Below are positions 16,874 to 55,117 of a stretch of 64,000 bases of DNA, in pieces. The DNA is taken from NCBI RefSeq assembly GCF_013141825.1, contig NZ_RZNH01000006.1, positions 62,001-126,000 on the forward strand, written 5' to 3'. A program made the position numbers and the translations under genes. The notes below the pieces were generated by a model. It worked only from the letters and a program-made list of their open reading frames with translations. It was not told the origin of the DNA and searched no databases. The first letter of the stretch is position 1. Each line of letters starts with the position of its first letter. The stretch comes from Marinifilum caeruleilacunae (GTDB taxonomy: Bacteria > Bacteroidota > Bacteroidia > Bacteroidales > Marinifilaceae).

Positions 16874-16900
16874 CACATCATTTAAAAACTGCCTTGTCTT
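16874..16900 (+). promoter_or_regulatory. ECF-type promoter site 1 (fecR 1)
   Basis: CAC at 16874-16876, preceded by TTTT, and TTGTCTT at 16894-16900. The 20-base offset from CAC to the second element matches the sites at 26019, 52275, 52958 and 55091. It lies 43 bases before the fecR 1 ATG, and a TATACAAGA stretch follows, as at site 5. Confidence 0.65.
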
Positions 16901-16942
16901 AAGGGTGTATACAAGATATCTATAGATCGAAATAAATTACAA

Positions 16943-18130
16943 ATGGAAGAAAGAATTATTGATATTATTTCCAAATCACTTGGGGGACAACCAACTACCA
17001 GCGACGAGAAGAAAGCCCTGGAAGAATGGTTGAGCGATGGAGGAAATAAAAGATTCTACCAGGGAATGCAACATTTTTCATCCGAAGCCAAAGAGTCATT
17101 AAAGGCTCGCGAAGCCAATGTTGATCGTGCATTTGAAAAGCACCTGGGCAAAATGAAAGAAAATCGCAAAACATTGCGTTTGAAAACTTTCAGGAAAGTA
17201 TTGCCTTATGCTGCCTCAATTTTATTAATGGCCGGACTGTTCTCGGTAATGATGTATTTGGGGCATGAAGATCCTGGCATTTCGCAGGAAGAACAATGGC
17301 TTACGGCAATTGAGCCTGGCTCGAATAAAGCAGAGTTGGTGCTTGCCGATGGAAAGGTGCTTGATCTGGATGCAAAGCGTCGTAAGAATGAAATTCAGGA
17401 GAAGGATGGAACACGAATTAGCAATACCGGTTCGAGTTTGGTGTATGATGCCAGCTCGAAAATGAGCGAAAAATTGAGTTACAACAGCCTGGTTGTGCCA
17501 AGAGGAGGAGAGTTTCAGTTGGAATTGGAAGATGGTACCAAGGTGTGGATCAATTCAGAAACCAGATTGAGATATCCAACCAAATTCCCGAAAGGAGAGA
17601 GAGTGGTACTACTGGAAGGAGAGGCTTACTTTGAGGTAAGCAAGGATCAGAACAGACCATTTATCGTGAAAACGCAAGGTGTTGATGTTAGGGTATTGGG
17701 GACACAGTTTAATATTTCCTCTTATGCCGAAGATGAAACCATACAAACCACACTGGTTGAAGGTAGTGTTGCAGTAATGGACAGCAAAAATCCGAAAACA
17801 AATCTTCTTCTTGACCCTGGATACCAGGCAGTATATGCAAAAGCTGCCAAACAGCTGGAAAACAAAAAGGTAAATGTAGATCTCTATACCTCCTGGAAGG
17901 ATGGGAAATTTGTGTTCGAGCAAGCAAGCTTGTACGATATAATGAATAAAGTTTCGCGCTGGTACGACGTAAAAGTGTTCTACCAAAATAACGAGGCCGG
18001 CGATCTTAACTTTACAGGAACATTAAAACGATACGAAAATTTAGATCGATTATTGGGCATGATAGAAAAAACAAACGAAGTGAAGTTTTTCTTTAAAGAC
18101 AATACCATTATCGTTCAAAAACAATATTAA
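16943..18130 (+). CDS. FecR-family anti-sigma factor 1
   Basis: A 395-residue inner-membrane regulator. It has a cytoplasmic sigma-binding helical region (1-80), a TM helix near 88-106 (VLPYAASILLMAGLFSVMMYL), a periplasmic lead-in with AELVLADGKVLDLD, a FecR domain (about 185-280, with GGEFQLELEDGTKVWINSETRLRYP and FIVKTQGVDVRVLGTQFNISSY), and a C-terminal DUF4974/STN-contacting domain (about 320-395). It holds sigma 1 inactive until the STN domain of SusC 1 signals. It lies upstream of susC in the same direction, with paired hairpins in between. Confidence 0.93.
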   Translation: MEERIIDIISKSLGGQPTTSDEKKALEEWLSDGGNKRFYQGMQHFSSEAKESLKAREANVDRAFEKHLGKMKENRKTLRLKTFRKVLPYAASILLMAGLFSVMMYLGHEDPGISQEEQWLTAIEPGSNKAELVLADGKVLDLDAKRRKNEIQEKDGTRISNTGSSLVYDASSKMSEKLSYNSLVVPRGGEFQLELEDGTKVWINSETRLRYPTKFPKGERVVLLEGEAYFEVSKDQNRPFIVKTQGVDVRVLGTQFNISSYAEDETIQTTLVEGSVAVMDSKNPKTNLLLDPGYQAVYAKAAKQLENKKVNVDLYTSWKDGKFVFEQASLYDIMNKVSRWYDVKVFYQNNEAGDLNFTGTLKRYENLDRLLGMIEKTNEVKFFFKDNTIIVQKQY

Positions 18131-18209
18131 AAAGAAAGAAATTAAAGTTTCAGCTTAAAGCTGATATCAACCCAAAAAGATTGAAACCCAAGATATAGAA
18201 ACTAAAAAA

Positions 18210-18284
18210 CGGGTTTGCTACCAACAAACCCGCAATGATAATAATTACGGTATTCATCCCTGAGTGGAATCAATAGATGAATAC
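18210..18284 (+). promoter_or_regulatory. Two stem-loops in the fecR 1 - susC 1 junction
   Basis: Hairpin A: CGGGTTTG / CAAACCCG (18210-18217 / 18225-18232), 7-base loop. Hairpin B: GTATTCATC / GATGAATAC (18250-18258 / 18276-18284). Neither has a T-run, so they look like mRNA processing, stability or attenuation structures, not full terminators. The GTATTC...GAATAC stem recurs before susC 3 (56403-56422). Confidence 0.6.
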
Positions 18285-18313
18285 ATATGTGTAACTGTAA
18301 TCCTTACAAATTT

Positions 18314-21300
18314 ATGAAAAATTCATTTGGAATTGCCTCCTTTTTTGGAAAAAGAAGGTGGAAGAAAACTTTAATGCGTATGAAGTTACTTACAATGTTG
18401 ATGCTGGTGGGCGTATTGCAACTATCGGCAAATGTGAGAGGGCAAAATGCGTTGGTAAACATGAGTATGCATGACGCTAACCTGGTAGAGTTCTTTTCGG
18501 AGATCGCTGATCAGACCGATTACGAATTTTTGTACAATCACGATTTGATTCTAAGCAAGGAAACTGTAAGTCTTGATGCGAACCAACAAGACCTTAAAGA
18601 ACTTCTTGAAGATGTTTTGCACGAGCGAGAATTGGATTATGAATTGGATGATAATGTAATCATTATTTCGGAAAGACAATTTGTTGCACCAAGTGCCGAA
18701 ACAGCACCAGTTGTGCAGGAAAAAACAGTAAAAGGTAAAGTTGCAGATGATTCTGGAGCACCACTTCCGGGAGTGTCCATTGTTGTTAAAGGAACTTCAA
18801 TTGGTACTGCTACCGATATAGATGGAAACTATACCTTAACTTTAGAAGAAGGACAAAAAACTTTGGTGTTTTCATTCATTGGAATGCTAACACAAGAGGT
18901 GGCTTATAAAGGACAGGAAGTTCTAAATGTGACTCTTTTTGCCGATACAGAGCAAATGGCAGAGGTGGTTGTTACAGGTTATCAAACCATTGCCAAGGAA
19001 AGAGCAACGGGTTCTTTCCAAATTGTAAACTCAGAAGATTTAGATAATGTTGCATCACTGGATATTACTCAAAAACTAGTTGGTGTTGCATCGGGGGTTA
19101 AGGTAGATAAAGATGGTCAGATTGTGATTCGTGGTCAGGCAACATTAAGTGCCGAAACTCAACCTTTAATCGTAGTAAACGGACTTCCGTGGATGGGGCA
19201 ATTGTCTGAAATTAACTCGGAAGATGTGGAGCAGATTTCTGTATTAAAAGATGCTGCATCTACTTCTATTTATGGTGTGCGTGGTGCCAATGGTGTAATT
19301 GTAATTACCACAAAAAGTGGTAAAACCGATGGTAAACTTGTGGTGAATTATACCAATAGTTTCCAAGTTTCAGAAAAGCCAAAATTAGATGATTTAGATC
19401 TATTAAATTCAGAGCAATTTATCGACCTGGAGTGGGAGTCATATCAAACTGCAGGACTGCAATCTTTCCCTTGGTACAACTACAAGTCTGAGGTTGGAGA
19501 GATTTACAACCAGATGCAATCGGGTGTAATTACCGAAGCTGAGGCGCAAGGACAACTGGATGTTTTGAGAGCTTACGACAATCGCAAAGACATTGAAGAA
19601 GAATTTTTTCGTAGAGAAATGACTCAGAAACACACCATGTCTTTTGCATATGGATCAGACAAAAATCAATTCTATGCATCTCTTTCTTACGACGAGAACA
19701 AGACAAAATGGGATGGCATTGAGGGAAATAATATCGCTTTCAACCTGAACGATCAGTTTAAATTTAATAAGTTATTGAAGGTGAATTTGAATGCCTATGG
19801 TAACTTCCGCGAGAACAAGAATAACGGTAGTTTTGCTTCCATGACACGCCCTTACGTAAAATTCAAGGACGAGAATGGAAATTACCTTCACGAAGCAACA
19901 GGATCCTGGGACAATGCCACCCGTGCTTATCACGAAAGTTTGGGTTTATTGCCGATGTTTTACAATCAGATTCAGGAAAAAGAACTGAAAGATGATGAAT
20001 CCAGATCGAGCAATATTGCAACCAATGTTTCTGTTGATTTAACGCCTACCGATTGGTTAACAATTACAGCATCTTTAGGCTATAGTGTAATGAATGGCCG
20101 AAGCGAAGATTTGTGGAAGAAAGAATCGTACCGTGTAAGAAACTATGTGAATCGTTACACCGATATGAACATGAACCAAGTGATTCCAAACGGAGACATT
20201 TTCTGGTACGACGATATGCATTCTGCCAACCTTACCAAAAGACTACAGATGAGCATTAAGAAATCGGTAAAAGATTTCGATTTTAGCTTTAATGCAGGTA
20301 TGGAGCGTAACAAGTTCGAGTCTGATAACAATATGGGCAATGTGAGATTCAACTATCACTCTCAGCGACTAACGGAGAATGTAGTGAACTGGAAAGACTT
20401 GACTCAAGGTTTTGTGAATGCGACATTTGGTTGGTCTTCTCTTTGGCAAACTCCAATGCAATACAAATCGGAAGACCGATATCAGTCAACTTATTTTATT
20501 GGGAATGTTTCCTATAAAGGAAAATACGACCTTTCGGGTAGCTGGCGTTTGGATGAAACCAACCTATTCGGACAGTCTGATGATTACCAGGATCAGCCAT
20601 CGTGGTCGGTAGGAGCCAAATGGAATGTTAGCCAGGAAGATTTCTTTAAGGTAGATTGGATCAACTCTCTTGCTTTAAAAGGATCATTCGGATTGGCTGG
20701 TAATATCGATAAGTCAACTTCACCTTTCTTAATTGGTAGAGCTGGAACCGACTATTTCACTGGAAATCCAAGTTTGAGCATTACCAATCCTGAAAATCCA
20801 TTGTTGAGCTGGGAGGAAACCTATACCACCAATATTGGTGTGGATTATGCATTATTTGGCAATAGAATTAATGGTAGCATTGAGTTTTACAACCGATTAA
20901 CCAAAGATGTATTGGCACAGGTGAATGTTGATCCGACTACAGGATTTGGCGGTACATGGGACAAAGTAAGAAAAAACAATGGTGAGATTCTGAATCGAGG
21001 AATCGATTTGAATGTACATGCCAATATCGTGAAAACTCCTGATTTTAGATACGATGTAAACTTCAACTTTTCTTACAACTACAACGAGTTGAAAAAGGTA
21101 GATAAGCCTGCCAACAACAGAACCGATGTAATTTATGGAGATCCGGTTGAAGGTGAAGCGGTAGATTTTATTTACGGATATCGCAATGCAGGTTTGGATG
21201 CCGATGGTGAACCTCAGGTGTACAACCGAAATGGAGAAGTTGTTTTGTGGAGAGATATGACCTCCTTTGATATCGAAGATGGGAAGTTCTTTGGAAGAAC

Positions 21301-21829
21301 AACTGCGCCAATTTATGGATCATTGAACAATCATTTTACCTATAAGAATTTCTCTGCCGATATTTTCTTCCTGTATGATTTTGGACACTACGCTCCACAA
21401 TGGGAATATCCAAATCCGGTAAGAACTTCTTCAGAGAAAAATGTTCAAAACATTGTCGACCAGAGATGGAGAAATCCGGGAGATGAATTGAAAACAAAAG
21501 TGCCAAGATTAGATAACACTGCCTACAGTAGCAACGATCGTATTTCTGCAACATGGAACAGTGATTTTAATATCGATAAGGCAGATGTAATTCAGCTGAA
21601 GAGCATCAACCTGGCTTACGATTTCTCTTCTTTAATCAAGTTTACAGGAATCGAAAGCTTGAAATTAAAGTTTGGTGTGGAAAACCTGTGGCATTGGACC
21701 GCTGCCGGAAATGATAGAATTTACGATACAAGAATCAGTCGTGAATTTGAAACTGATTTAAGTTATGAGCGTTCATTTGACTTCCCAAAATTCAGAACTT
21801 TCACTTTCGGAATGTCGATGAGATTTTAA
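18314..21829 (+). CDS. SusC/RagA-type TonB-dependent transporter 1 with STN signalling domain
   Basis: 1171 residues from the chosen start. I prefer ATG 18314 over 18287 because the ACAAATTTATGAAAAA context is identical to that at susC 3 (56450), and the upstream codons overlap the leader. Order: signal peptide (to about residue 45), STN domain (FFSEIADQTDYEFLYNHDLI...), carboxypeptidase-regulatory-like domain (GKVADDSGAPLPGVSIVVKG), plug (SVLKDAASTSIYGVRGANGVIVITT) and a 22-strand barrel ending in aromatic F. It imports a ligand captured with SusD 1 using TonB energy; the STN domain reports occupancy to FecR 1. Substrate unknown. Confidence 0.95.
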   Translation: MKNSFGIASFFGKRRWKKTLMRMKLLTMLMLVGVLQLSANVRGQNALVNMSMHDANLVEFFSEIADQTDYEFLYNHDLILSKETVSLDANQQDLKELLEDVLHERELDYELDDNVIIISERQFVAPSAETAPVVQEKTVKGKVADDSGAPLPGVSIVVKGTSIGTATDIDGNYTLTLEEGQKTLVFSFIGMLTQEVAYKGQEVLNVTLFADTEQMAEVVVTGYQTIAKERATGSFQIVNSEDLDNVASLDITQKLVGVASGVKVDKDGQIVIRGQATLSAETQPLIVVNGLPWMGQLSEINSEDVEQISVLKDAASTSIYGVRGANGVIVITTKSGKTDGKLVVNYTNSFQVSEKPKLDDLDLLNSEQFIDLEWESYQTAGLQSFPWYNYKSEVGEIYNQMQSGVITEAEAQGQLDVLRAYDNRKDIEEEFFRREMTQKHTMSFAYGSDKNQFYASLSYDENKTKWDGIEGNNIAFNLNDQFKFNKLLKVNLNAYGNFRENKNNGSFASMTRPYVKFKDENGNYLHEATGSWDNATRAYHESLGLLPMFYNQIQEKELKDDESRSSNIATNVSVDLTPTDWLTITASLGYSVMNGRSEDLWKKESYRVRNYVNRYTDMNMNQVIPNGDIFWYDDMHSANLTKRLQMSIKKSVKDFDFSFNAGMERNKFESDNNMGNVRFNYHSQRLTENVVNWKDLTQGFVNATFGWSSLWQTPMQYKSEDRYQSTYFIGNVSYKGKYDLSGSWRLDETNLFGQSDDYQDQPSWSVGAKWNVSQEDFFKVDWINSLALKGSFGLAGNIDKSTSPFLIGRAGTDYFTGNPSLSITNPENPLLSWEETYTTNIGVDYALFGNRINGSIEFYNRLTKDVLAQVNVDPTTGFGGTWDKVRKNNGEILNRGIDLNVHANIVKTPDFRYDVNFNFSYNYNELKKVDKPANNRTDVIYGDPVEGEAVDFIYGYRNAGLDADGEPQVYNRNGEVVLWRDMTSFDIEDGKFFGRTTAPIYGSLNNHFTYKNFSADIFFLYDFGHYAPQWEYPNPVRTSSEKNVQNIVDQRWRNPGDELKTKVPRLDNTAYSSNDRISATWNSDFNIDKADVIQLKSINLAYDFSSLIKFTGIESLKLKFGVENLWHWTAAGNDRIYDTRISREFETDLSYERSFDFPKFRTFTFGMSMRF

Positions 21830-21854
21830 AGCCTGTTTTGTAAAAGATTAAAAA

Positions 21855-23228: not shown

Positions 23229-23238
23229 ACAAACAATT

Positions 23239-23262
23239 CAAAGGAGCCATAGTGCTCCTTTG
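23239..23262 (+). promoter_or_regulatory. Stem-loop between susD 1 and the first TlpA gene
   Basis: Perfect 9-bp stem CAAAGGAGC / GCTCCTTTG (23239-23247 / 23254-23262), 6-base loop, followed by only three T residues. It may act as a leaky terminator or 3' stabiliser separating high susCD from lower downstream expression. It begins 10 bases after the susD stop. Confidence 0.65.
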
Positions 23263-23368
23263 TTTACCACTCTGCCCACTTCTAATAACTCTTACTCTTG
23301 GAATAGAATTCAAGTCGAAACGACCTGAATCGATATTGTACACTCAAAATTCAAATAAAATAACAGTT

Positions 23369-24502: not shown

Positions 24503-24515
24503 ACAGCACAAGGCA

Positions 24516-25715: not shown

Positions 25716-25744
25716 AACAGATTTGTTTTATGATTTGGGTAGGA

Positions 25745-25775
25745 ATGCTGGCAGTGGAAACTGCTGGCATTTTTT
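25745..25775 (+). terminator. Rho-independent terminator after the TlpA pair
   Basis: Ten-bp stem ATGCTGGCAG / CTGCTGGCAT (25745-25754 / 25761-25770, two G-T pairs) followed by TTTTT. It ends the fecR 1-susCD-TlpA operon. Confidence 0.88.
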
Positions 25776-26018
25776 GTTTGGACGCAGATTTCTATGATCT
25801 TTTTGATTTTCGCAGATCGGTAACCCCAATGTTTTAATAGAATAAGTAAATTTTTTTCTGCTTTATACAGAAATTAAGCGCTTTTCGACTAAAGGATCCG
25901 ATGTTTGTTTAACTATTGATTCGAATGATTCATAGATTTTATATCAAGCGAAAATACATTGAATCGAGTAAGCAAAGACCTGTTTAGGTTAATTAAGGTT
26001 AAAATTTCAATTTTCATT
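25776..26018. other. Intergenic stretch with degenerate CGCAGAT repeats
   Basis: No gene is seen. CGCAGATT (25783-25790) and CGCAGATC (25811-25818) flank a GATC-containing spacer, resembling worn CGCAGAT-type intergenic repeats of Bacteroidota. The rest is AT-rich sequence leading to ECF site 2. Confidence 0.45.
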
Positions 26019-26044
26019 CACACATATCGTGTTTTGATATGTCC
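26019..26044 (+). promoter_or_regulatory. ECF-type promoter site 2 (thioredoxin operon)
   Basis: CACAC at 26019 preceded by TTTTCATT, and ATGTCCTAAG beginning at 26039, with the same 20-base offset as the other four sites. It lies 55 bases before the thioredoxin ATG. A TATAAAAAG stretch follows, where sites 1 and 5 have TATACAAG. Confidence 0.6.
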
Positions 26045-26098
26045 TAAGAGTATAAAAAGAAATTTATTAATGGTAATTACCACAAAATTTAACTCAAA

Positions 26099-27310: not shown

Positions 27311-27349
27311 TCAGTACAGAATTTATTGATTATTTTTAAACACTTAATA

Positions 27350-27391
27350 AAGTAGTTTGGCAATTCGTAATAGGGAAGCCAAACTACTTTT
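27350..27391 (+). terminator. Strong hairpin between thioredoxin 1 and the DUF4369-propeller gene
   Basis: Perfect 12-bp stem AAGTAGTTTGGC / GCCAAACTACTT (27350-27361 / 27378-27389) followed by TTTT (27388-27391). The weak T-tract suggests partial termination or attenuation, not a complete stop. Confidence 0.7.
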
Positions 27392-29064: not shown

Positions 29065-29131
29065 CTTTTTTTTCACCCGATTCGCTCATTTAATTGTCTA
29101 TATAATAGAAGCGAATAAAAGGGAGAAAGTC

Positions 29132-29503
29132 ATGATTAATGTAGAATACAAATCGGATAAAGATATTTTGGATGTTGTGATGACAGGGAGGATACAATTC
29201 GCTCAGATGAAAGAATATTGTTTGAATCTTTTAAAAGACTTAACAACACCAAAACATATAAGGATATTGGAAGATGCAAGTCAGGCAGAACTGCTTTACG
29301 ATATCGATGATGCTGAAAGATTAGGTACAATTCTGGAAGCGGAATTAGATCATAGGTTTATTGTGAGTCATGCATTAATTCGCCGAAATCCGCTCGATAC
29401 GGCCTACGGTATCATTAGAATGAAAACCAATACAAACGATCGCTACCATTTAAAGGTATTTTCTACAGCCGAAAATGGAAGAGATTGGTTACTGAGAGAA
29501 TAA
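29132..29503 (+). CDS. Small STAS/SpoIIAA-like protein
   Basis: 123 residues from ATG 29132, which follows a good GGGAGAAAG ribosome-binding sequence. An in-frame ATG at 28988 overlaps the previous gene and terminator and gives an unlikely hydrophobic start. Alternating strands and helices (DILDVVMTGRIQFAQMKEYC, HIRILEDASQ, RFIVSHALIRRN, YHLKVFSTAENGRDWL) fit the SpoIIAA/STAS-like fold; the ending resembles the F-ST-eeA--WL motif of that family. Likely a cytoplasmic lipid- or protein-binding regulator. Confidence 0.6.
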   Translation: MINVEYKSDKDILDVVMTGRIQFAQMKEYCLNLLKDLTTPKHIRILEDASQAELLYDIDDAERLGTILEAELDHRFIVSHALIRRNPLDTAYGIIRMKTNTNDRYHLKVFSTAENGRDWLLRE

Positions 29504-35875: not shown

Positions 35876-36038
35876 GCTAAAAAATGTTTTTGTCACGAGT
35901 TTTATGCCTTTGGAAGATTAGATTTTGTTCGCTGATTTCAGAAAATTATCAGCAGGCGCTCATGCAACAAATTTTCACTTTATCAGATTTTTTGCATCTT
36001 TGACAAACCTAAATGAACCACCTAAGAAACCTAAACCA

Positions 36039-36611
36039 TTGAAAACTCATCCCCAAAATATTGATTTTCTGATCCGTAGATTATCGGTCGAATCTGATGA
36101 AAGAGCCTTGGATGAGCTCTTTCATATTTACTACGACAGATTACTAACAGCATCTTTTGTATTGGTAAAGAGTAAAGACCTGGCAGAAGAAGTTGTTGCG
36201 GATGTATTCTATCGTCTGTGGCAAAATCGGGAGAAACTACCAGAGGTTAAAAACCTTGACAACTACCTGTTTATTAGCATTCGAAATCAATCTCTGAACT
36301 ACATCAATCGTGAACAACGACATGGAAAAGACTCTATTGATGATGTGGTATCGAACCAATTAAGCGAGGAAAATACGGCCGAAGATTTTATTGTTGCCAA
36401 AGAGCTCCAGGATAAAATTACCCAGAGTATTGAAAGTTTACCACCAAAATGTAGGGAAGTTTTTTTGCTCATTCGCTTCGAAGGAAAGAAATACAAAGAG
36501 GTAGCCGAACTGCTCAAAGTGTCTGTAAATACAGTAGATACACAAATGGGAATTGCCATCAAAAAATTGGGCGAAATGTTGGGATATAAGGGAAAATCGA
36601 AAAAAAAGTAA
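36039..36611 (+). CDS. FecI-type ECF sigma factor 2
   Basis: About 190 residues from a TTG at 36039, which yields LKTHPQNIDFLIRRLS, the expected N-terminus of this family. The frame is open back to 35925 but has no ATG before the core, so a non-ATG start is required (TTG 36039, 36000 or 35925). Region 2 (ALDELFHIYYDRLLTASFVLVKSKDLAEEVVADVFYRLW) and region 4 (SLPPKCREVFLLIRFEGKKYKEVAELLKVSVNTVDTQM) are intact. It is 67 bases upstream of fecR 2 and presumably controls the second SusC/SusD cassette. Its leader lacks the TAACCCACTATT block shared by sigma 1 and 3. Confidence 0.88.
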   Translation: MKTHPQNIDFLIRRLSVESDERALDELFHIYYDRLLTASFVLVKSKDLAEEVVADVFYRLWQNREKLPEVKNLDNYLFISIRNQSLNYINREQRHGKDSIDDVVSNQLSEENTAEDFIVAKELQDKITQSIESLPPKCREVFLLIRFEGKKYKEVAELLKVSVNTVDTQMGIAIKKLGEMLGYKGKSKKK

Positions 36612-36678
36612 TTTTTTTCATTTTCTTTTAGTGGAAGATTAAAATAATCCTGTCTTTAAATTGAACTACAAGAATACA

Positions 36679-37710
36679 ATGACGGAAATGACTAAAATAA
36701 ATCAATTGATAGCAAAGCATTTTGCTGGAGATATTTCTAATGAAGAAATGAGTCAACTAAAGGAATGGCTTGATTCTTCGGAAGATAATAGATTGCTATT
36801 TAATGATTTAAAGCAAAGTTGGGAGAGTTTCAACTTGCCTGCTTCATCAGAAGATAAATTTCGTGTTTTGAGCAAGGTGAAAGCGAGAATTAAAACTGAT
36901 GAAATTAAAGAAGATAAAGTAGTTAGACCTCTTTTTAATAAAGTGTGGTATAAATATGCTGCTTCTCTTATCGTAATCGTTTCTGTTTCAATTTTGGCTT
37001 GGTATCAGCTTAATGAACCATTTTCTGTTTTAAATACTTTAGGCTACGAAGTAAATCAGTGTGAAGCCGGCACCCACGAAAAACTAATCTTATCCGACGG
37101 AAGTCAGGTTTTTATGAATGGAGATAGTCGCATCAAATATAAAATGAATGCAGAAGGAAGCGAACGAATTGTATATCTGGAAGGAGAAGCCTTTTTCGAT
37201 GTTGCAAGAGATGAAAAAAAGCCATTTATTATTGGTTTAGATGATGCAGAAGTAAAAGTACTGGGAACTTCTTTTAATATCAAAGCTTATCCTGGAGATC
37301 ATTCGGTGGAAACATCGGTTGTAACCGGTAAGGTAGCATTTAATCACATGCATGGTTTTCTTAAAAAGAATAAGGAAAGTATGTTTTTGGTCCCAGGTCA
37401 AAAAGGGGTAATTAACCATAGTAGCGATTCTTTCGATCAATTAAGCGTAAACAATGAATTGGATATTGCCTGGATGCAAAAGAAGCTCAACTTTAAGAAT
37501 ACCCCGCTTTTAGAAATCACAAAACAATTATATAGAATGTATGGTGTGAAGTTTAAACTTACTGATGGCAGTCTGGAAGATTTAAAAATCACAGCCAGTT
37601 TTGAAAATGAGAAATTGGAAGAAGTCATGAAAATTCTTGAGATGATGAGTGAGTTCTCATATAAACAAGAGAATAACCTGCTAACAATAGGAAAGAAAGG
37701 TGAATTCTAA
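36679..37710 (+). CDS. FecR-family anti-sigma factor 2
   Basis: 343 residues from ATG 36679 (a TTG at 36661 is also in frame). A cytoplasmic sigma-binding region (INQLIAKHFAGDISNEEMSQLKEWL) precedes a TM helix near residues 92-110 (WYKYAASLIVIVSVSILAWY). The FecR domain carries HEKLILSDGSQVFMNGDSRIKY and PFIIGLDDAEVKVLGTSFNIKAY; a DUF4974-like end (NTPLLEITKQLYRMYGVKF...) follows. It lacks the extra VLADG/I-ekdG lead-in found in FecR 1 and 3, so it belongs to a different subgroup. The upstream CTGTCTTTAAA (36650-36660) resembles the -10 half of the ECF motif, but no CACCC lies at the right distance. Confidence 0.92.
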   Translation: MTEMTKINQLIAKHFAGDISNEEMSQLKEWLDSSEDNRLLFNDLKQSWESFNLPASSEDKFRVLSKVKARIKTDEIKEDKVVRPLFNKVWYKYAASLIVIVSVSILAWYQLNEPFSVLNTLGYEVNQCEAGTHEKLILSDGSQVFMNGDSRIKYKMNAEGSERIVYLEGEAFFDVARDEKKPFIIGLDDAEVKVLGTSFNIKAYPGDHSVETSVVTGKVAFNHMHGFLKKNKESMFLVPGQKGVINHSSDSFDQLSVNNELDIAWMQKKLNFKNTPLLEITKQLYRMYGVKFKLTDGSLEDLKITASFENEKLEEVMKILEMMSEFSYKQENNLLTIGKKGEF

Positions 37711-46314: not shown

Positions 46315-46322
46315 TTTGAATC

Positions 46323-47747: not shown

Positions 47748-47811
47748 AATACCTGTGTAACAAACAGGATCATATCTAAACGAATTCATAAAATCATAGT
47801 CGTTTTAAGTT

Positions 47812-47849
47812 GTTAGGAGTCACCTGAATCTTATTTCAGGCCTCTTAAC
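47812..47849 (+). promoter_or_regulatory. Bipartite stem-loop between susD 2 and thioredoxin 2
   Basis: Outer stem GTTAGGAG / CTCTTAAC (47812-47819 / 47842-47849, one G-T pair) and inner stem CCTGAA / TTCAGG (47823-47828 / 47835-47840). No T-run. It occupies the same junction as stem-loops at 23239-23262 and 61744-61776. Confidence 0.6.
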
Positions 47850-47881
47850 ACAGCGATACTTCTATTCTTAAAACTTGCAGA

Positions 47882-49027: not shown

Positions 49028-49060
49028 TAAATAGAGGAACCTACTAAGTATAAAAACCAA

Positions 49061-50320
49061 ATGAAAAATTTATTTAAAATGATTACTGCAGTGGCATTAG
49101 CAATTTGCTGCTCAGTAAATGCTGAAGCTCAAAATCGTTCAGTTGAATTCGAGCACACAAGCTGGAAAAAGGTTTTAAAGAAAGCCAAAAAAGAGGATAA
49201 GCTCATCTTTGTTGATTGCTATACATCATGGTGTGGCCCTTGTAAGATGATGGCAAAGGATGTGTTTACACAAGATCATGTTGCCGATTACTTCAACAGC
49301 AATTTTGTGAATTTTAAAATTGATATGGAAAAAGGCGAAGGACCTACCTTAAAACCGGGTTGGAAGATCAATGCCTACCCAACATTTTTAGTAATCAATT
49401 CGGAGGGAGAAGTAATTCATAGAGTTGTTGGAGCATTCGGTGCCGACGAGTTTATTACCTACATTAAGGATGCACAGGATCCAGACAAGAACTTCGCAGC
49501 ACTTTCTAAAGCATACGAGGCTGGACAAAGAGATGGGGAATTTATGTTTTCCTATCTGCGTGGACTTCGCTTGGCAAATCTGGATAAGGAAGAAGCAAGG
49601 AAAGCGAAAAAATACATCGCCAGCCTGTCAAAGGATGCTTTGCTGAAAAAAGAAAACTGGAACATCATTAAATTTTTCATGAAAGAACCTTTGACTGATG
49701 AGTTTAGATTTGTTGTTGAAAACAGGGAGAAGTATGCAGAAATGCATGGGGCAAAGGAAATTGATTCTAAAATCTACACTACCTACAACAAGAAAATTGA
49801 GTCATTCTCTTACTTCTATCCAGGAAATGGAAGAGAGTACGACAAGGCTGGATTTGATCGAATGATTCAGGATCTTCAGAGCGCTGACTTTCCAAAAGCT
49901 TCAGAATTAATTGCAATTGCGCTTAAAAATGAATACCAGCGATTGAATGATTGGAGCAAGTACGCTTCTGTGATTGATGGGGCTTTGGATTTTGCTTTAC
50001 TAAAGAACTACGAGAAGCAGTATGACTATTTTAACTCTGCTGCATCCATGATTGCAAAAGCATCAACAGACCAGGAAATGTTGACAAGAGCACTTCGCTG
50101 GGCAAGTTTTGCTGCTCAAAATGAATCGAGAGTAGAATACAAATCGGGTTACCTGGCAACTAAAGCTAACCTGCTGGAACTTGTTGGGAATGCCGAAGCA
50201 GCAAAAACTGCAAAAATGGAATCGGAACAAGCCGATAAAGCGGCCGAGAAAGCTGGTACAAAAATTATTTCTATCCCTGCCTTTAAAATGGGAGGAATGA
50301 AACCAGCTAAGAAAAAATAA
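49061..50320 (+). CDS. Periplasmic thioredoxin-family protein 3
   Basis: 419 residues. A signal peptide ends near SVNAEAQ (residue 24). The thioredoxin domain has CYTSWCGPCKMM (CGPC 58-61) and cis-Pro at AYPTFLV. Helical repeats follow to an alanine-rich tail (KTAKMESEQADKAAEKAG) and a basic C-terminus. It is 33 bases downstream of thioredoxin 2 and a tandem duplicate of it. The FEH(T/G)-W/F pattern before the active site is shared with thioredoxin 1. Confidence 0.88.
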   Translation: MKNLFKMITAVALAICCSVNAEAQNRSVEFEHTSWKKVLKKAKKEDKLIFVDCYTSWCGPCKMMAKDVFTQDHVADYFNSNFVNFKIDMEKGEGPTLKPGWKINAYPTFLVINSEGEVIHRVVGAFGADEFITYIKDAQDPDKNFAALSKAYEAGQRDGEFMFSYLRGLRLANLDKEEARKAKKYIASLSKDALLKKENWNIIKFFMKEPLTDEFRFVVENREKYAEMHGAKEIDSKIYTTYNKKIESFSYFYPGNGREYDKAGFDRMIQDLQSADFPKASELIAIALKNEYQRLNDWSKYASVIDGALDFALLKNYEKQYDYFNSAASMIAKASTDQEMLTRALRWASFAAQNESRVEYKSGYLATKANLLELVGNAEAAKTAKMESEQADKAAEKAGTKIISIPAFKMGGMKPAKKK

Positions 50321-50404
50321 AATGCCGGGAAATGTTGAAATGAGCAAACATATCCGAAAGCATTCTTAAAATGATACATTATTAATTATACAATATTAAA
50401 ATAG

Positions 50405-51541
50405 ATGAGAACAATAGTAATTGCATTGATTGCGGCAGTATTATTTGGTTGTGCGCAACAACCAGTTGATAATACCATTACAATTAAAGGAAAAGTACAG
50501 TTTCCTGATAATAACTTTAAAATGACCATTGTAAAACGTTCTGGTTTTGAGAAAGAAATAATCGATTCTGTAGAGCTAAACGCTGATAATACCTACGAGT
50601 TTACAATGAATGTAGACAAGCCTGGCGTTTATACATTGGATTGTCAGAAATGGCAATCGGTTCAGTTTTGGGCCGAAGATGAGGATTTGGAAATTGATTT
50701 TCGTGGACAGGATACTGCAAAAATCAAAATCAAAAATCCTCCATATGTATACATTAATGGTGGACCGAATAATGAGGTGATGAACTTATTAAATTTTAAC
50801 AATTATCGCTCTTATCAAGGGATGATTGCTGCCGGAAAAGTAATTTACAAGGCTTCATTATCAGACAGTAAAGAATGGAAAGAAAGTGCTGCACAGGGCT
50901 ATAACAGAAACTATGAGCAGAGCGATGCATACTTTAGATATATTGCCGAGCATTACGCCGATCGTAACTCGATTTTATCGGTTCTGGGTTCATTAAGAAA
51001 AGAGAGTGATAAAGAGCTGAAAGAGAAAATTCTTAAAACTCTTGAAGCAAAAAATCCAAATTATCAGCCTTTACTCGATGTGAAAAAAGAAATGGCAGAA
51101 GCCCAGGAAGCAAGGGAAAGAATGATGGAAGGAAAGGTAGCTCCCGATTTTTCATTCCCAACAAAAAGTGGTGACAGAACTTATGGTCCTAAAGATTTTC
51201 GTGGCAAATATGTGTTAATCGATTTCTGGGCATCATGGTGTGGTCCTTGTCGCCAGGAAATTCCTCACCTGAAAAAGGAGTACGAAAAATATCATGATAA
51301 AGGATTGGAAATGTTAAGCGTTTCAATTGATCAGAGCAAGAATGCCTGGATGAAAGCTATGCGTAAAGAAAAGATGCCTTGGCCACAGGTACAGGCTCCA
51401 AAGGCTGGAAAAGAGATCATGAAGGAATATCAGTTCTCAGGAATTCCATTCATCGTGCTTTTAGATAAAGAAGGGAAAATTGTTGGAAAGAATTTGAGAG
51501 GAGAGAAATTGGAAAAATTGTTGGAGTCAATTTTTCATTAA
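50405..51541 (+). CDS. TlpA-family thiol-disulfide lipoprotein 3
   Basis: 378 residues with lipobox LFGC (C16). The N-terminal beta domain (about 22-115, ITIKGKVQFPDNNFKMTIV) is DUF4369-like but shorter, followed by a helical linker and a TlpA domain with FWASWCGPCRQE (CGPC 279-282) and cis-Pro at SGIPFIV. It is predicted to be an anchored periplasmic thiol-disulfide oxidoreductase acting with the two upstream soluble thioredoxins. It begins 84 bases after thioredoxin 3. Confidence 0.92.
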   Translation: MRTIVIALIAAVLFGCAQQPVDNTITIKGKVQFPDNNFKMTIVKRSGFEKEIIDSVELNADNTYEFTMNVDKPGVYTLDCQKWQSVQFWAEDEDLEIDFRGQDTAKIKIKNPPYVYINGGPNNEVMNLLNFNNYRSYQGMIAAGKVIYKASLSDSKEWKESAAQGYNRNYEQSDAYFRYIAEHYADRNSILSVLGSLRKESDKELKEKILKTLEAKNPNYQPLLDVKKEMAEAQEARERMMEGKVAPDFSFPTKSGDRTYGPKDFRGKYVLIDFWASWCGPCRQEIPHLKKEYEKYHDKGLEMLSVSIDQSKNAWMKAMRKEKMPWPQVQAPKAGKEIMKEYQFSGIPFIVLLDKEGKIVGKNLRGEKLEKLLESIFH

Positions 51542-51583
51542 AAAAGAAGGAATACAAGTTTAATATTTGCGAATCTATTGATG

Positions 51584-51616
51584 AAGTCCCACAAGCCCAT
51601 TTGTGGAGTGGGACTT
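51584..51616 (+). promoter_or_regulatory. Stem-loop between TlpA 3 and the SRPBCC gene
   Basis: AAGTCCCAC / GTGGGACTT (51584-51592 / 51608-51616) with no T-run. An alternative register pairs CACAA with TTGTG in the loop region. Confidence 0.55.
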
Positions 51617-51635
51617 CCAATTTGAATACAAAGAG

Positions 51636-52160
51636 ATGATGAAAAAACACATTTTATTATTGGTTTCGTTAATCGTTTTAACGGTGACCAGTTCCCTGGC
51701 ACAAAGTGCAATGCAGCCAGCAACAAAACTTCCTCCAACGCTACAGAGAGAAGGAGTTGTAAATGCAACGGCCGATGAGCTTTGGGCTTTAATTTCGGTG
51801 CTGGATAAGGTAGATGAATACAATTCGGAATTTGTACAATCGGTAGAGAAAGAGGGCGACGGTTACGAAGCATATCGTTTGGTTAAAATGGTGGATGGAA
51901 ACGAAAGAGGCGAAGAAGTAACAGTTTTTGCAAAATCTGCAAAAAGAATCTGTTTTAGATCGGAAGATTCCCAATACCCGGTTGAGTATTTTATTGTGAA
52001 TTATTACATCGAGGAATCAGGAAAATCGAAATGTAAGCTTCGATTGGAATCTTATTTTAAGGTGAACAAAGGTGCTGCAAAAACGAAGACCTACAAAGCT
52101 ATTGCAAAGGAACTATCCACAACCTTAAAAGGAATCCAAACCTATTTCAGCAAGAAATAA
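51636..52160 (+). CDS. Exported SRPBCC/START-like lipid- or ligand-binding protein
   Basis: 174 residues from ATG 51636 (ATGATG; 51639 equally possible). Upstream codons in frame would overlap the stem-loop. A signal peptide ends at TSSLAQ. The mature part (REGVVNATADELWALISVLDKVDEYNSEFVQSVEKEGDGY...) has the order of strands and a long C-terminal helix (TYKAIAKELSTTLKGIQTYF) of the polyketide-cyclase/START-like fold, which binds hydrophobic ligands in a cavity. It is the last gene of cassette 2. Ligand unknown. Confidence 0.75.
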   Translation: MMKKHILLLVSLIVLTVTSSLAQSAMQPATKLPPTLQREGVVNATADELWALISVLDKVDEYNSEFVQSVEKEGDGYEAYRLVKMVDGNERGEEVTVFAKSAKRICFRSEDSQYPVEYFIVNYYIEESGKSKCKLRLESYFKVNKGAAKTKTYKAIAKELSTTLKGIQTYFSKK

Positions 52161-52198
52161 TGATTAGATTTTTATAAGATCCATTGAATAGGATAAGG

Positions 52199-52222
52199 CC
52201 GTCTCACAAGAGGCGGTTTTTT
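52199..52222 (+). terminator. Rho-independent terminator of cassette 2
   Basis: Stem CCGTCTC / GAGGCGG (52199-52205 / 52210-52216), loop ACAA, then TTTTTT (52217-52222). Confidence 0.9.
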
Positions 52223-52274
52223 ATTTACACCATTTCACAAAGGTTAATTAAGCTTAAAAAGTGAGTTTGGCTTT

Positions 52275-52301
52275 CACCCTATTTGTTTTTAAAATTGTCT
52301 T
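52275..52301 (+). promoter_or_regulatory. ECF-type promoter site 3 (DsbD-alpha gene)
   Basis: CTTTCACCCT with CAC at 52275-52277 and TTGTCTT beginning at 52295: the same 20-base offset as the other sites and one of the two best matches. It lies 67 bases before the ATG at 52368. Confidence 0.7.
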
Positions 52302-52367
52302 TAGAACAGAAAGAATAAACAAAGGTAATGGAGGAGAGGTCTCTTTCATGTTGTAAAAAGTAATGAT

Positions 52368-52841
52368 ATGAAAAATAAAATTGCAGTACTTCTGGTACTA
52401 ATGTTAAGTGTGTCAACAGTTTCTTTTGCGCAAATTTTAACCCCTGCAAAATGGACAGTTGAGTTATCGAAGAAAGAAATCAAAGTAGGCGATGTAATTG
52501 ATGTCGTTTTTAAAGCTAAGATTGATAAAAGCTGGCATGTATATTCAAATGATTTTGACGCGGACTTGGGGCCAATATTAATCGAGTTTGATTTTGAAGC
52601 TGATGCAAGTTACGAACGCATTGGAAAAGTAAAACCAATTAATGCCCACAAGAAATACGACAAGATTTGGGAAGGTGAAGTAAGCTATTTCGAAAATACA
52701 GCCGAAATGCGTCAGCAAATTAAGGTAAAGAGTTTACCACTGCATGTTGAAGGAACTTTCGATTTCCAGACATGTTCGGACCAAACAGGACAGTGTGTTA
52801 TGGGGGATGATGAGTTTGATTTGAATTATCCTGCCAAGTAA
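52368..52841 (+). CDS. Single-domain DsbD-alpha (nDsbD)-like periplasmic protein
   Basis: 157 residues. A signal peptide ends at VSFAQ. The mature sequence matches the N-terminal periplasmic domain of DsbD (WTVELSKKEIKVGDVIDVVFKAKIDKSWHVYSN), ending with the redox cysteines C136 and C143 in FDFQTCSDQTGQCVMGDDEF. In full-length DsbD this domain passes reducing equivalents from the membrane domain to periplasmic acceptors. Here the membrane and C-terminal thioredoxin domains are absent and the gene ends cleanly before a terminator. It may hand electrons to the TlpA/thioredoxin proteins of the island. The cysteine spacing (CX6C) is one longer than E. coli's CX5C. Confidence 0.85.
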   Translation: MKNKIAVLLVLMLSVSTVSFAQILTPAKWTVELSKKEIKVGDVIDVVFKAKIDKSWHVYSNDFDADLGPILIEFDFEADASYERIGKVKPINAHKKYDKIWEGEVSYFENTAEMRQQIKVKSLPLHVEGTFDFQTCSDQTGQCVMGDDEFDLNYPAK

Positions 52842-52864
52842 ATCAAGTTTATATTGAAGTGAAA

Positions 52865-52894
52865 AGGCTGTCTGTTAAGGGCAGTCTTTTTTTT
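52865..52894 (+). terminator. Rho-independent terminator after the DsbD-alpha gene
   Basis: Eight-bp stem AGGCTGTC / GGCAGTCT-type pairing (52865-52872 / 52880-52887, with G-T pairs) followed by a run of T residues. Confidence 0.85.
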
Positions 52895-52957
52895 GCATCT
52901 ATTCTTAAGGTCAAAAACTTCCTGATCAACATTCCAATAAAAATTTTTCATCTTCTT

Positions 52958-52984
52958 CACCCACTTTTCAAATTAGCTTGTCTC
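52958..52984 (+). promoter_or_regulatory. ECF-type promoter site 4 (outer-membrane protein gene)
   Basis: TTCTTCACCC with CAC at 52958-52960 and TTGTCTC beginning at 52978; the 20-base offset is identical to the other sites. It lies 34 bases before the ATG at 53018. Confidence 0.65.
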
Positions 52985-53017
52985 CCTATAAAATAACCAA
53001 GTGCTAATTCTAAATTT

Positions 53018-54271
53018 ATGAAGAAACTATTAATCATTTTATGCATGCTTATCAGCACCATGCTGATGGCACAGGAAGAGGAGAAGAGGGAGTATACCAA
53101 ACTAAAAGTGTATTTGGATTGTAATTTCTGCGATATGTCTTACCTAATTCAGGAAATGAGTTACATTAATTTCGCACGAGATCCGAAAGATGCCGATGTT
53201 TACGTGATTGTTAGAACGCAACAAACCGGCAGCGGTGGTACTTCCTACCAATTGGAGTATACAGGCCAAAATTCCTACGAGCACATTTCAAATCAGTTTA
53301 GTTTTACCACTTTAGCTACCAATACCCAGGACGAAATAAGGAAAGAGCTGAAAGTTGCCATTGAAATGGGATTATCGACCTATTGGATTCAGTTGGGGCA
53401 AAGAGAATACAAAGAAAGGCAGCAAAAAGAAGCCGGTGAAATTGTGGAAGAAAAGCCTACAGAGGAAGATTCAAAAGATCCTTGGAACAACTGGGTTTTC
53501 CAAGTGGGTGCCAGTGGTAGCATGAGCGGTCAGAAGACCTCAGAGTCGAGTAGGTATAGCTTTAATTTTTCGAGTAAACAAGTAACCGACAAACACAAAT
53601 TTTACCTGAGCGCACGACATAATTCAAACCGATCGGAATATTCATTCGGAGAGTTTAAGGAGGTGAGTAAAACAAAATCGACTACGCTGGATGTAAGTGA
53701 AGCAATCAGTATATCAGATCATTGGTCGGTGGGTGCTTTTGCCAATCTTGAAATGTCGGATTTTGCAAACTACGACTTAAGCTTATCGATTAAACCAGCC
53801 ATAGAATACAGCTTTTTCCCTTACAAGGTTTCTAACCAGAAACAGCTTACCCTATCGTATAGAGTTGGAGGATTGTATAACGATTATCAGATTCTAACGG
53901 TGTTTAACGAAACCACCGAATATTTGTGGGAACACAGTTTAAATTTGGGTGCAAGTGTGAGACAAAAATGGGGCGATTTATCAGGAGAAGTCGAATACAA
54001 AAGTATCCTTGATGACAGCTCACTATACTCCTTTAATTTTAGTTTACATACCAGTATCAGGTTGTTTAAAGGCTTCTCGCTAAATGTGAGTGGTAACTAC
54101 GAAATTACCAGGAACCAAATTAATCTGGCGGCACGTAGTGTTGATATCAATGATATCATTCTGCAGCGAAACCAGGTTCAGTCGAACTATAATTTTTATA
54201 CATCTGTTGGAATTAGCTATTCCTTTGGTTCCATGTTTAATACGGTTGTAAATCCACGATTTGGATTCTAA
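53018..54271 (+). CDS. Outer-membrane beta-barrel protein with N-terminal CxxC-bearing periplasmic domain
   Basis: 417 residues. A signal peptide ends at LMAQ (residue 19). A small alpha/beta domain (28-130) begins KVYLDCNFCDMSYLIQEM with C35-x-x-C38 and continues NFARDPKDADVYVIVRTQQTGSGGTSY, a conserved hypothetical pattern I recognise from Bacteroidota proteins without a known function. A Glu/Lys linker leads to a 12-14 strand barrel with alternating hydrophobic residues and a C-terminal aromatic (PRFGF). The CxxC may bind metal or be a redox target. It is monocistronic under its own ECF-like promoter. Confidence 0.75.
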   Translation: MKKLLIILCMLISTMLMAQEEEKREYTKLKVYLDCNFCDMSYLIQEMSYINFARDPKDADVYVIVRTQQTGSGGTSYQLEYTGQNSYEHISNQFSFTTLATNTQDEIRKELKVAIEMGLSTYWIQLGQREYKERQQKEAGEIVEEKPTEEDSKDPWNNWVFQVGASGSMSGQKTSESSRYSFNFSSKQVTDKHKFYLSARHNSNRSEYSFGEFKEVSKTKSTTLDVSEAISISDHWSVGAFANLEMSDFANYDLSLSIKPAIEYSFFPYKVSNQKQLTLSYRVGGLYNDYQILTVFNETTEYLWEHSLNLGASVRQKWGDLSGEVEYKSILDDSSLYSFNFSLHTSIRLFKGFSLNVSGNYEITRNQINLAARSVDINDIILQRNQVQSNYNFYTSVGISYSFGSMFNTVVNPRFGF

Positions 54272-54296
54272 AAAATCAAAATAAACATATTATGCA

Positions 54297-54325
54297 AACT
54301 GCCTCTTTTACAGGGGCGGTTTTTT
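54297..54325 (+). terminator. Rho-independent terminator after the outer-membrane protein gene
   Basis: Nine-bp stem AACTGCCTC / GGGGCGGTT (54297-54305 / 54313-54321, two G-T pairs) with a T-tract. Confidence 0.88.
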
Positions 54326-54488
54326 CGTGTTTAAAAAGGATGTATTTGTGAGTTTTGACAAAGAACTGTTAAAATATTTTAAAACAAAATTATTCTTTGA
54401 TAACTAAGTGATTGCGAAGGGTGAACCAGATTTTTTTAGCAAAACGAATTTGCACAGACTAAAAAAAAAACACTATTTTGCCCACAAA

Positions 54489-54500
54489 TAACCCACTATT
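54489..54500 (+). promoter_or_regulatory. TAACCCACTATT leader block of ECF sigma gene 3
   Basis: Exact 12-base match to 16031-16042 upstream of sigma gene 1; both are preceded by a TATTTT(T)GC box (here CTATTTTGCC at 54473-54482). It ends one base before the ATG at 54502. Confidence 0.55.
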
Positions 54501-54501
54501 A

Positions 54502-55062
54502 ATGAAGACCTATTCTGATAAAACCATTACCGTTGAGAATAATGAGTCGCTGAGTTATAATGATTTATTCAATGAAATGTATTCAGCACTCTGCATGTTC
54601 GCCGGGCGATTTCTCGTAGTCGCTTCCGACGGGGAAGATTTGGTACAGGAAGTTTTTGTAAAATTGTGGGACAAATTCGAGGAGTTTAACTCTTTGAATG
54701 CTGTTAAAGCCTATCTATACCAGGCAACGAGAAATGCTTGCCTAAACGAAATCCGACACGAAAAAGTAAAAAGAAAATACGAATCTCATCAGGTGAAGCA
54801 GGTTGAATCGGAATCGTACTACCTAAAACAGGTGGTTGAGGAAGAAACAAGTCGAATTATCGCCAATTCCATTGATGAATTACCTCCACAGTGTAAAAAA
54901 ATCCTGCAATTGAGTATGCAGGGATTAAAGAACCAGGAAATCGCCGATGATCTTGGAATATCAGTAAATTCGGTAAAAACACAAAAGGCAATTGCCTACA
55001 AAACATTACGATCTAAACTGCAGAATATCTTCGATTTAATTCTGCATATCCTCTGGATGTAA
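54502..55062 (+). CDS. FecI-type ECF sigma factor 3
   Basis: 186 residues from ATG 54502, chosen over an in-frame TTG at 54478 that lies inside the promoter-leader. Region 2 (YSALCMFAGRFLVVASDGEDLVQEVFVKLWDKF) and region 4 (IDELPPQCKKILQLSMQGLKNQEIADDLGISVNSVKTQKAIAYKTL) are complete. It shares its leader with sigma 1 and is followed 75 bases later by fecR 3, which carries a clear ECF-type promoter. It could regulate its own cassette and the matching sites elsewhere in the island. Confidence 0.92.
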   Translation: MKTYSDKTITVENNESLSYNDLFNEMYSALCMFAGRFLVVASDGEDLVQEVFVKLWDKFEEFNSLNAVKAYLYQATRNACLNEIRHEKVKRKYESHQVKQVESESYYLKQVVEEETSRIIANSIDELPPQCKKILQLSMQGLKNQEIADDLGISVNSVKTQKAIAYKTLRSKLQNIFDLILHILWM

Positions 55063-55090
55063 AAAAATGTATTTTTTTTTCTTTTTTCTT

Positions 55091-55117
55091 CACCCTGTTT
55101 TTAAATGAAGGTGTTTC
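55091..55117 (+). promoter_or_regulatory. ECF-type promoter site 5 (fecR 3)
   Basis: CTTCACCCTG with CAC at 55091-55093 and GTGTTTC at 55111-55117, same 20-base offset; TATACAAGAG follows as at site 1. The ATG of fecR 3 lies 20 bases downstream. Confidence 0.65.

Follow-up and report, generated by a model that had tools for sequence, protein, structure and literature searches.

Five paired boxes in a Marinifilum caeruleilacunae island look like promoters of at least three control proteins

We analysed a 64,000-nt stretch of the genome of Marinifilum caeruleilacunae (the window, to which all coordinates refer; G000:C168:62001-126000 of the 5.27 Mb draft genome, G000) that carries five similar pairs of short boxes upstream of genes for FecR-type anti-sigma factors and thiol-redox proteins. 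A preliminary description of this DNA had read the five pairs as a single extracytoplasmic function (ECF) sigma regulon, controlled by one or both of two FecI-type sigma factors encoded in the window, sigma 1 and sigma 3. Evidence of every kind presented here is sequence-based; it agrees with the look and spacing of ECF-type promoter pairs in front of uptake and redox genes, but not with a single pooled regulon. The five pairs look like real promoters belonging to at least three control proteins: they split into a sigma 1 type, a sigma 3 type and a third type, class A. More generally, we consider it likely that such sites are the -35/-10 promoters of several FecI-type ECF sigma factors and that many sigma-fecR modules carry a private promoter in the gap between the two genes.

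All five sites are present on the plus strand, with TTCAC starting at 16872, 26017, 52273, 52956 and 55089. As the preliminary description had it, the (T)TGT box stands 20 bases from the first C of CAC at every site, and the distances from the 28-base site to the mechanically called start codon are 43, 54, 67, 34 and 20 bases, in the same order. The loose pattern TTCAC-N{16,18}-NTGTYY matches eight times in the window against 2.85 expected, a count reached in none of 100 shuffles (largest, 7). Six of these matches have the exact spacing and lie on the plus strand, namely the five reported sites and one more at 29072; the other two (29857 and 37522) are on the minus strand with other spacings. 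Genome-wide, the loose pattern is at chance, with 64 matches (38+26) against 61 (29+32) for the reversed control. Its sharper forms behave differently: TTCACCC-N16-TGT is found 19 times against 6 for the reversed control, class A (TTCACCC-N16-TGTCT) 8 times against 0, and class B (TTCACCC-N15-GTGTTT), the form to which the sigma 3 site belongs, 6 times against 0. The claim of a fixed spacing beyond chance thus holds in the window and for the sharp forms and fails for the loose pattern across the genome; the genome scan that had been named in advance as able to overturn the claim tells against the loose pattern alone. Two of the five, 16872 (TTCACAT) and 26017 (TTCACAC), are without the CCC and do not represent the element seen at the remaining three.

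The class A and class B sites of this genome avoid genes. With mechanical calling, 13 of the 14 lie outside open reading frames (ORFs) and none lies inside a credible gene; the fourteenth, 29072, overlaps an ORF solely via a mechanical start upstream of the gene start seen in relatives. A start codon follows within 115 nt at 11 of the 14 sites, or at 12 when 29072 is read from the sequence, the exceptions being a site on C29 (217 nt) and one on C20, with 579 nt to the next ORF of at least 60 aa. The C20 site (G000:C20:27184-27211; L236:7184), a class A site with similar sites in G036 and G040, closely resembles by eye the fecR promoter of the C61 sigma factor discussed below and could drive a small RNA. 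The features of the window that enter the argument are the following.

15244..15269, minus strand: TTCACCC-N16-TGTTA site before a 129-aa gene (14798-15187, minus strand)
16055..16612, plus strand: sigma 1, FecI-type ECF sigma factor (TIGR02985), recognition helix NTVRTHM
16872..16901, plus strand: predicted sigma 1-type promoter TTCACAT-N16-TGTCTTA in the sigma1-fecR1 gap, with TCACATCA kept in orthologues
16943..18130, plus strand: fecR1, anti-sigma factor
25988..26002, plus strand: upstream repeat box GTTAATTAAGGTTAA before the thioredoxin-like gene 26099, 0 mismatches
26017..26044, plus strand: class A-like promoter (TTCACAC..ATGTCC) before the thioredoxin-like gene 26099
29072..29099, plus strand: class A promoter, absent from the preliminary description, before a small gene starting near 29132
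35925..36611, plus strand: sigma 2, FecI-type, recognition helix NTVDTQM
36628..36656, plus strand: predicted sigma 2-type promoter TTAGTGG-N16-TGTCTT in the sigma2-fecR2 gap, kept in relatives
36661..37710, plus strand: fecR2, anti-sigma factor, true start possibly the ATG near 36679
52243..52257, plus strand: upstream repeat box GTTAATTAAGCTTAA before the DsbD-alpha gene, 1 mismatch
52273..52300, plus strand: class A promoter before the DsbD-alpha gene (52368), with orthologous sites in g1, g10, g11, g12 and g14 genomes
52956..52983, plus strand: class A promoter before a DUF481 gene (53018)
54478..55062, plus strand: sigma 3, FecI-type, recognition helix NSVKTQK
55089..55116, plus strand: predicted sigma 3-type (class B) promoter TTCACCC..GGTGTTT in the sigma3-fecR3 gap, seen in the window and five orthologues
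55137..56336, plus strand: fecR3, anti-sigma factor

Sigma 1, 2 and 3 score 142, 154 and 151 bits against TIGR02985 (Sig70_bacteroi1; cut-off 126.4), and Pfam finds sigma70 region 2 and region 4 in each. The gene order is that of FecI-FecR-FecA modules: FecR and FecR_C are present in all three FecR proteins, and SusC-type genes come next. Among the four SusC proteins scanned for the STN domain (Pfam cut-off, 28.4), 56450 scores over the cut-off (31.8) and 18287 under it (22.7), and the domain is not reported in 37799 and 43204.

Each of the three modules has its own conserved box pair in the gap. In orthologues of sigma 1, TCACATCA is conserved and followed 16 bases later by a TGTC box; seven of the nine orthologues other than the window's own (L143, L144, L146-L150) show the complete pair, the second box reading TGTCT in five, TGTCC in one and TGTCA in one. 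For L142 and L145 the sequence stretch ended before the second box, which a 20-kb stretch shows in the genome of L142 (G039). The sigma2-fecR2 gap keeps TTAGTGGAA and TGTCTT in G036, G039, G037 and G040 (which reads TTAGTGGAAAA); no TTAGTGG was found in the stretch examined next to the G005 sigma factor L323, which has a sigma 2-type helix and is 46% identical. In the sigma3-fecR3 gap, TTCACCC..GGTGTT is kept in the window and in all five orthologues of a 57-genome set from the family while the spacer changes. These orthologues (74-81% identical) come from Labilibaculum filiforme, L. manganireducens, L. euxinus, Labilibaculum sp. K2S and Ancylomarina euxinus, Labilibaculum and Ancylomarina being members of the family Marinifilaceae; four of the five read GTGTTC and are missed by the strict class B pattern. 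Because the three gap boxes differ and each is kept in orthologues, the three sigma factors of the window appear to have three different promoters, and with moderate confidence we assign 16872 to sigma 1 and 55089 to sigma 3.

The same arrangement recurs across the family. From 238 sigma ORFs in family-set and own-genome loci we kept the 213 FecI-like ones with a score of at least 130 and 150 nt or more of downstream sequence. In the first 350 nt past the sigma gene, [TG]TCACCC occurs 84 times in sense and 10 times in antisense orientation, and [TG]TCACAT 20 and 7 times. Removal of sequences at least 85% identical left 165 non-redundant FecI-type sigma factors, in which the box was called as the first [TG]TCAC(CC|AT|AC) within 350 nt downstream of the gene. 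For the 91 of these with at least 250 nt of upstream sequence, the box follows the sigma gene in 52 cases and precedes it in 4; these 4 are background, because the opposite strand gives 12 of 91 before the gene. In 28 of 74 gap sites TGT stands at N16, and other offsets from 8 to 29 give 0-4, except for 9 at offset 27, so that two boxes at a fixed spacing of about 16-18, as expected of ECF sigma promoters, are in place, with the first tracking a residue of the recognition helix. A FecR-like ORF is next in 63 of the 74 box-bearing cases, and 21 of these 63 ORFs have their mechanical start 48-50 bases downstream of the first base of the first box, which would put the fecR start codon only about 12-15 bases after the expected transcription start.

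The identity of the first box follows a single residue of region 4. In the 165 non-redundant sigma factors, those with a KT helix have 62 CACCC, 0 CACAT and 36 without a box, and those with an RT helix 10 CACAT, 0 CACCC and 8 without; the other 49 show 1 CACCC, 4 CACAT, 2 CACAC and 42 without. For K/R against CC/AT among box-bearing sigma factors, the Fisher p is 2e-12, a value that ignores the kinship of these related sequences. Loci collected after the rule was framed give 22 CACCC, 0 CACAT and 22 without a box for KT, and 3 CACAT, 0 CACCC and 2 without for RT, and a tree built without the helix columns contains two independent K/R contrasts, both in agreement with the rule. The boxes were also compared between pairs of sigma factors, using 97 rule-obeying sites, a selection that inflates first-box identity and leaves the second box unselected. 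In pairs 60-85% identical, the second box is 0.86 and the spacer 0.50 identical; at 45-60%, the second box is 0.46, the spacer 0.40 and the first box 0.93 identical. Thus, both boxes look selected, and since second-box identity falls to near the spacer level in distant pairs, the second box would be what differs between clades. Sigma factors with an EN helix (KTVEN/KTIEN) in the L066, L059/L071 and L400 loci have TAGGG(G/T) about 16 bases before (T/C)GTCTTAC in the sigma-fecR gap, possibly a further first-box type.

Class A is a separate set, associated in part with redox genes. The six genomes of the window's genus contain 8, 6, 6, 7, 6 and 6 class A sites, with 0 control matches in each; elsewhere, the counts are 37 against 5 control matches in g11 (Labilibaculum, nine genomes), 4 against 0 in g12, 10 against 0 in g14 (two genomes) and 2 against 0 in g10. 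With diverged spacers, class A sites precede DsbD-alpha and DsbD-like genes in g1, g10, g11, g12 and g14; they also precede thioredoxin-like genes in g11, a cysteine-desulfurase-like gene (SufS model, under the cut-off), an Nramp-type transporter gene and a gene of 148-150 aa that is mostly followed by one weakly resembling TonB-dependent receptors. A g11 match common to five genomes (CATAAACATGTCT), with no gene after it in G029, is probably due to chance. An order-wide search found a class A match in 111 of 392 genomes, mostly one or two and at most four outside the family, a mild excess over the reversed control (about 62 genomes with a match, by hand count) and far short of the 6-8 sites per genome against 0 in the window's genus; as a set, class A looks confined to five genera of the family. 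The small gene behind 29072 is conserved in G036 and G039. Sites before genes similar to thioredoxin-like 26099 also occur in G036, G039, G026, G029 and G030, and 26017, with its upstream repeat box, reads as a class A-like variant. G036 and G026 are examples of genomes that have class A sites but no close orthologue of either sigma 1 or sigma 3, so class A appears to need another sigma factor.

To date, the broader class B set has been seen in this genome only. Besides the sigma 3-type site at 55089, three more class B sites lie on the same contig just past the window. This part of the island is flanked by two class A sites, with 4 kb between them in G036 and 30 kb in the window's genome; sigma 3, fecR3 and four of the six class B sites all fall within the additional DNA. 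The rest of the genus (five genomes) has one strict class B match (G038), and its best sigma 3 matches are 42-46% identical; no class B site was seen beyond the gap in the 17-20 kb stretches around the sigma 3 orthologues (L209, L214, L218-L220). A strict match occurs in 11 of the 57 genomes and in five of them is one shared GC-rich g11 sequence. In locus L064 (2709-2760 and 4431-4482), two thioredoxin-like genes have an exact upstream repeat box followed by TTCATTCC and GCGTGT boxes, which are degenerate relatives of class B.

A direct repeat stands upstream of many of these sites. With 0-1 mismatch, GTTAATTAAGGTTAA or its complement is found at eight places in or just after the window (25988 and 52243; in L064, 514, 2709, 4431, 13478, 15351 and 18648), and seven of the eight boxes stand 13-20 bases before a TTCA-type first box. 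Twenty Markov-1 shuffles of the window gave no match at 0-1 mismatch; for 2-3 mismatches the window falls inside the range of the shuffles. In 14 of 46 class A representatives, TTAAC-N5-TTAAC occurs upstream with 9-10 of 10 positions matching, at a distance of 8-9, 13-15 or 18-20 from TTCAC, compared with 0 of 46 downstream, 1 of 72 gap promoters and 1.4% of shuffles. For this count similar sites were merged and ten class A loci of the order-wide search (L257-L266) left aside; the 46 include sites from genomes outside the five class A genera. In these 14, the layout is that of OmpR/CpxR-type response-regulator boxes, a 5-base direct repeat with a 10-base period at set distances upstream of the -35 box, and the repeat probably serves an activator of that type. 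The CpxR box of enteric bacteria, GTAAA-N5-GTAAA, is likewise a direct repeat with a 10-base period, and it too stands before genes for periplasmic enzymes of thiol chemistry and folding; here, in contrast, the half-site is GTTAA/TTAAC and accompanies ECF-type promoters.

From conservation, strand and position bias, and covariation, we infer transcription, sigma assignment, feedback and an activator in the following scheme. The first box, (T/G)TCACCC for most sigma factors, TCACAT for the sigma 1 type and TTAGTGG for sigma 2, would be read by the region 4 recognition helix and track one residue of it, and the second box, about 16 bases on, would be specific to each sigma clade. Once FecR releases the sigma factor, RNA polymerase would make the fecR transcript, probably together with the susCD genes behind, with a very short leader (about 12-15 nt) and without transcribing the sigma gene itself. 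A promoter placed after the sigma gene and before the anti-sigma gene would let the sigma factor induce its own inhibitor and not itself, which suggests negative feedback. Sigma 3 would also serve further genes, in the thioredoxin neighbourhood and of the DUF4369 type, through class B, and thiol-redox genes across the genome (DsbD-like, DsbD-alpha and others) would use class A, read by a sigma factor other than sigmas 1-3; many class A promoters would add TTAAC-N5-TTAAC 8-20 bases upstream, probably for the response-regulator-type activator. The sequences argue strongly for the elements, moderately for the sigma assignments and weakly for the reader of class A.

The original idea, in which the island is coordinated by sigma 1 and/or sigma 3 acting at all five sites, draws on the TTCAC and spacing common to all of them and on sigma 1's own box, which has the same TTGTCTTA as class A. 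We regard it as very unlikely: class A sites are kept in G036 and G026, where both sigma 1 and sigma 3 lack an orthologue, TCACATCA rather than TTCACCC is conserved in the sigma 1 gaps, and the second boxes differ between site types and are kept separately. It is also unlikely, if slightly less so, that the pairs bind a transcription factor or act as RNA elements within the leaders of the fecR and redox transcripts. CACCC and GGGTG can indeed pair in the sigma 3 clade, but by eye the other clades examined lack this complementarity, the first box tracks a residue of sigma region 4 and the second tracks the sigma clade, and sigma promoters typically have 16-17 bases between their boxes. Accidental resemblance within AT-rich intergenic DNA would account for the loose pattern being at chance genome-wide; it is contradicted by the sharp forms (8 against 0 and 6 against 0) and by orthologous conservation with diverged spacers, and is hardly credible.

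Several observations weigh against promoters of several FecI-type sigma factors as the explanation. Two class B sites of this genome, on C29 and C191, are far from sigma 3, and the CACC and GGTG parts of the sigma 3 type could pair to form an RNA hairpin in that clade. No box is seen within 350 nt for 44 of the 116 KT and RT sigma factors, and 61 of the 91 sigma factors without a rule-conforming box still precede a FecR-like gene. The two independent K/R contrasts on the tree are too few for significance. A broader version of the promoter reading is a code in which each gap holds the cognate promoter, one helix position (K, R, perhaps D or E) sets the first box (CACCC, CACAT, TTAGTGG, TAGGG) and region 2 sets a clade-private second box 16 bases on. 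A genome would then contain dozens of promoter systems insulated from one another, all with negative feedback built in through an anti-sigma mRNA whose leader is very short, and regulons could be predicted from sequence alone; we are evenly divided on whether this code exists.

As for the reader of class A, the pattern of genomes points to a sigma factor other than sigmas 1-3. The C61-type sigma factor (G000:C61:68037), with its own gap promoter GTCACCC-N16-TGTT(A/T), is a tentative and rather doubtful candidate. Among FecI-type sigma factors compared between G000 and G026, it is the sole shared one with a CACCC-type helix and gap box; orthologues occur in the class A genera g1, g10, g11, g12 and g14; and the TTCACCC-N16-TGTTA site at 15244 (minus strand; four genomes) is intermediate between C61-type and class A forms. 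However, the C61-type box starts with G and has TGTTA in 11 of 12 loci (TGTTT in G000), where class A has T first and TGTCT, the gene heads a SusCD locus near what by eye look like galactose-metabolism genes and not a redox locus, and a 57% identical relative is found in G005, where class A is not enriched. G005 is the one class A-poor genome in this comparison. In the C61 locus itself (L241; sigma-fecR-susCD), GTCACC-N17-TGTT(A/T) is in the gap in 12 of 12 loci from the five class A genera, and the galactose-metabolism-like genes (by eye) are nearby in 11 of 12 (not L244). The site at 15244-15269 is also present in G036, G039 and G026.

Five other candidates were rejected. Sigma 1 lacks close orthologues in genomes that carry class A, G036 and G026 among them; sigma 2 differs in its first box and lacks an orthologue in G026, where the best of 25 TIGR02985 matches reaches 35%; and the C191 sigma factor (L075) has no close orthologue in G026, G027, G041, G033 and G034. 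The SigZ-type sigma factor (L080) is present in G000 and G026, absent from G005 and syntenic with a class A gene, but the sequence conserved upstream of the preceding gene, GCGTC-N16-CGTCTAC, is unlike class A. The L093 sigma factor has the same phyletic pattern as the SigZ type, but in neither G000 nor G026 does its locus carry a class A site. A SigZ-type sigma factor with a Cys-rich tail is encoded at L347:3331-4316 (G000:C136:87331-88316). In all five genomes examined (G000, G036, G040, G026 and G027) it is preceded by a Cys-rich gene of 84-85 aa, metallothionein-like by eye and without an NCBIfam match, with conserved GCGTC-N16-CGTCTAC-like sequence upstream.

Other scans of the window added little. 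Rfam gave no match at the promoter sites; on the minus strand at 14366-14427 it matched the Acido-Lenti-1 RNA, unexpected in Bacteroidota, at 38.6 against a gathering score of 37. A sigma-70 consensus scan of 52000-56500 was uninformative (16 promoter-like sites against 13.0 in shuffles).

Bacteroidota carry dozens of ECF sigma factors, many of them tied to glycan and nutrient uptake, but only a small number of their promoters have been described. Should the gap promoter and the helix rule hold, the cognate promoters of many such sigma factors could be read from the genome, regulons predicted and insulated expression tools built. According to the cited passages, a 2013 regulon study considered the prediction of ECF-controlled promoters challenging and dependent on start-site data (PMC3878776), and a 2020 start-site map stated that a motif was available for EcfO of B. 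fragilis but for no alternative ECF sigma factor of Bacteroides thetaiotaomicron (PMC7366714). That map describes PM2 as a non-canonical, near-palindromic -30/-10 motif (PMC7366714), and a 2025 account links SigW-1 and SigH-1 of B. thetaiotaomicron to a -30/-10 motif with TGTT near -10 (PMC12596196). The second box described here resembles the SigW-1 targets in its TGTT-like sequence at about -10 (PMC12596196). For PM2 and the SigW-1 and SigH-1 motifs, the relevant passages of these accounts describe neither a first box of the TTCACCC kind nor a location in the gap ahead of the anti-sigma gene, nor do they describe a helix rule. The SM6 motif of Flavobacterium psychrophilum, as given in the corresponding passages, is tied to type IX secretion system (T9SS) genes and one sigma/anti-sigma pair and likewise lacks a TTCACCC first box. 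No description of the TTCACCC motif was found in open-licence full texts, which is weak evidence of novelty.

The closest parallel is the FecI-FecR-FecA system of Escherichia coli, which shares a FecI-type sigma factor, a FecR anti-sigma factor and a TonB-dependent outer-membrane receptor. In E. coli, the cited passage places promoters ahead of both fecA and fecI and describes fecIR as free of autoregulation (PMC9249621). The modules described here depart from that layout, which has no promoter between fecI and fecR: a box follows the sigma gene in 52 of 91 sigma factors and precedes it in 4 of 91, and the first box is TCACCC-like. Compared with the E. coli arrangement in that source, a box between sigma and fecR would place the inhibitor gene inside the sigma factor's own regulon, a layout that predicts a feedback logic opposite to that of a self-amplifying ECF operon.

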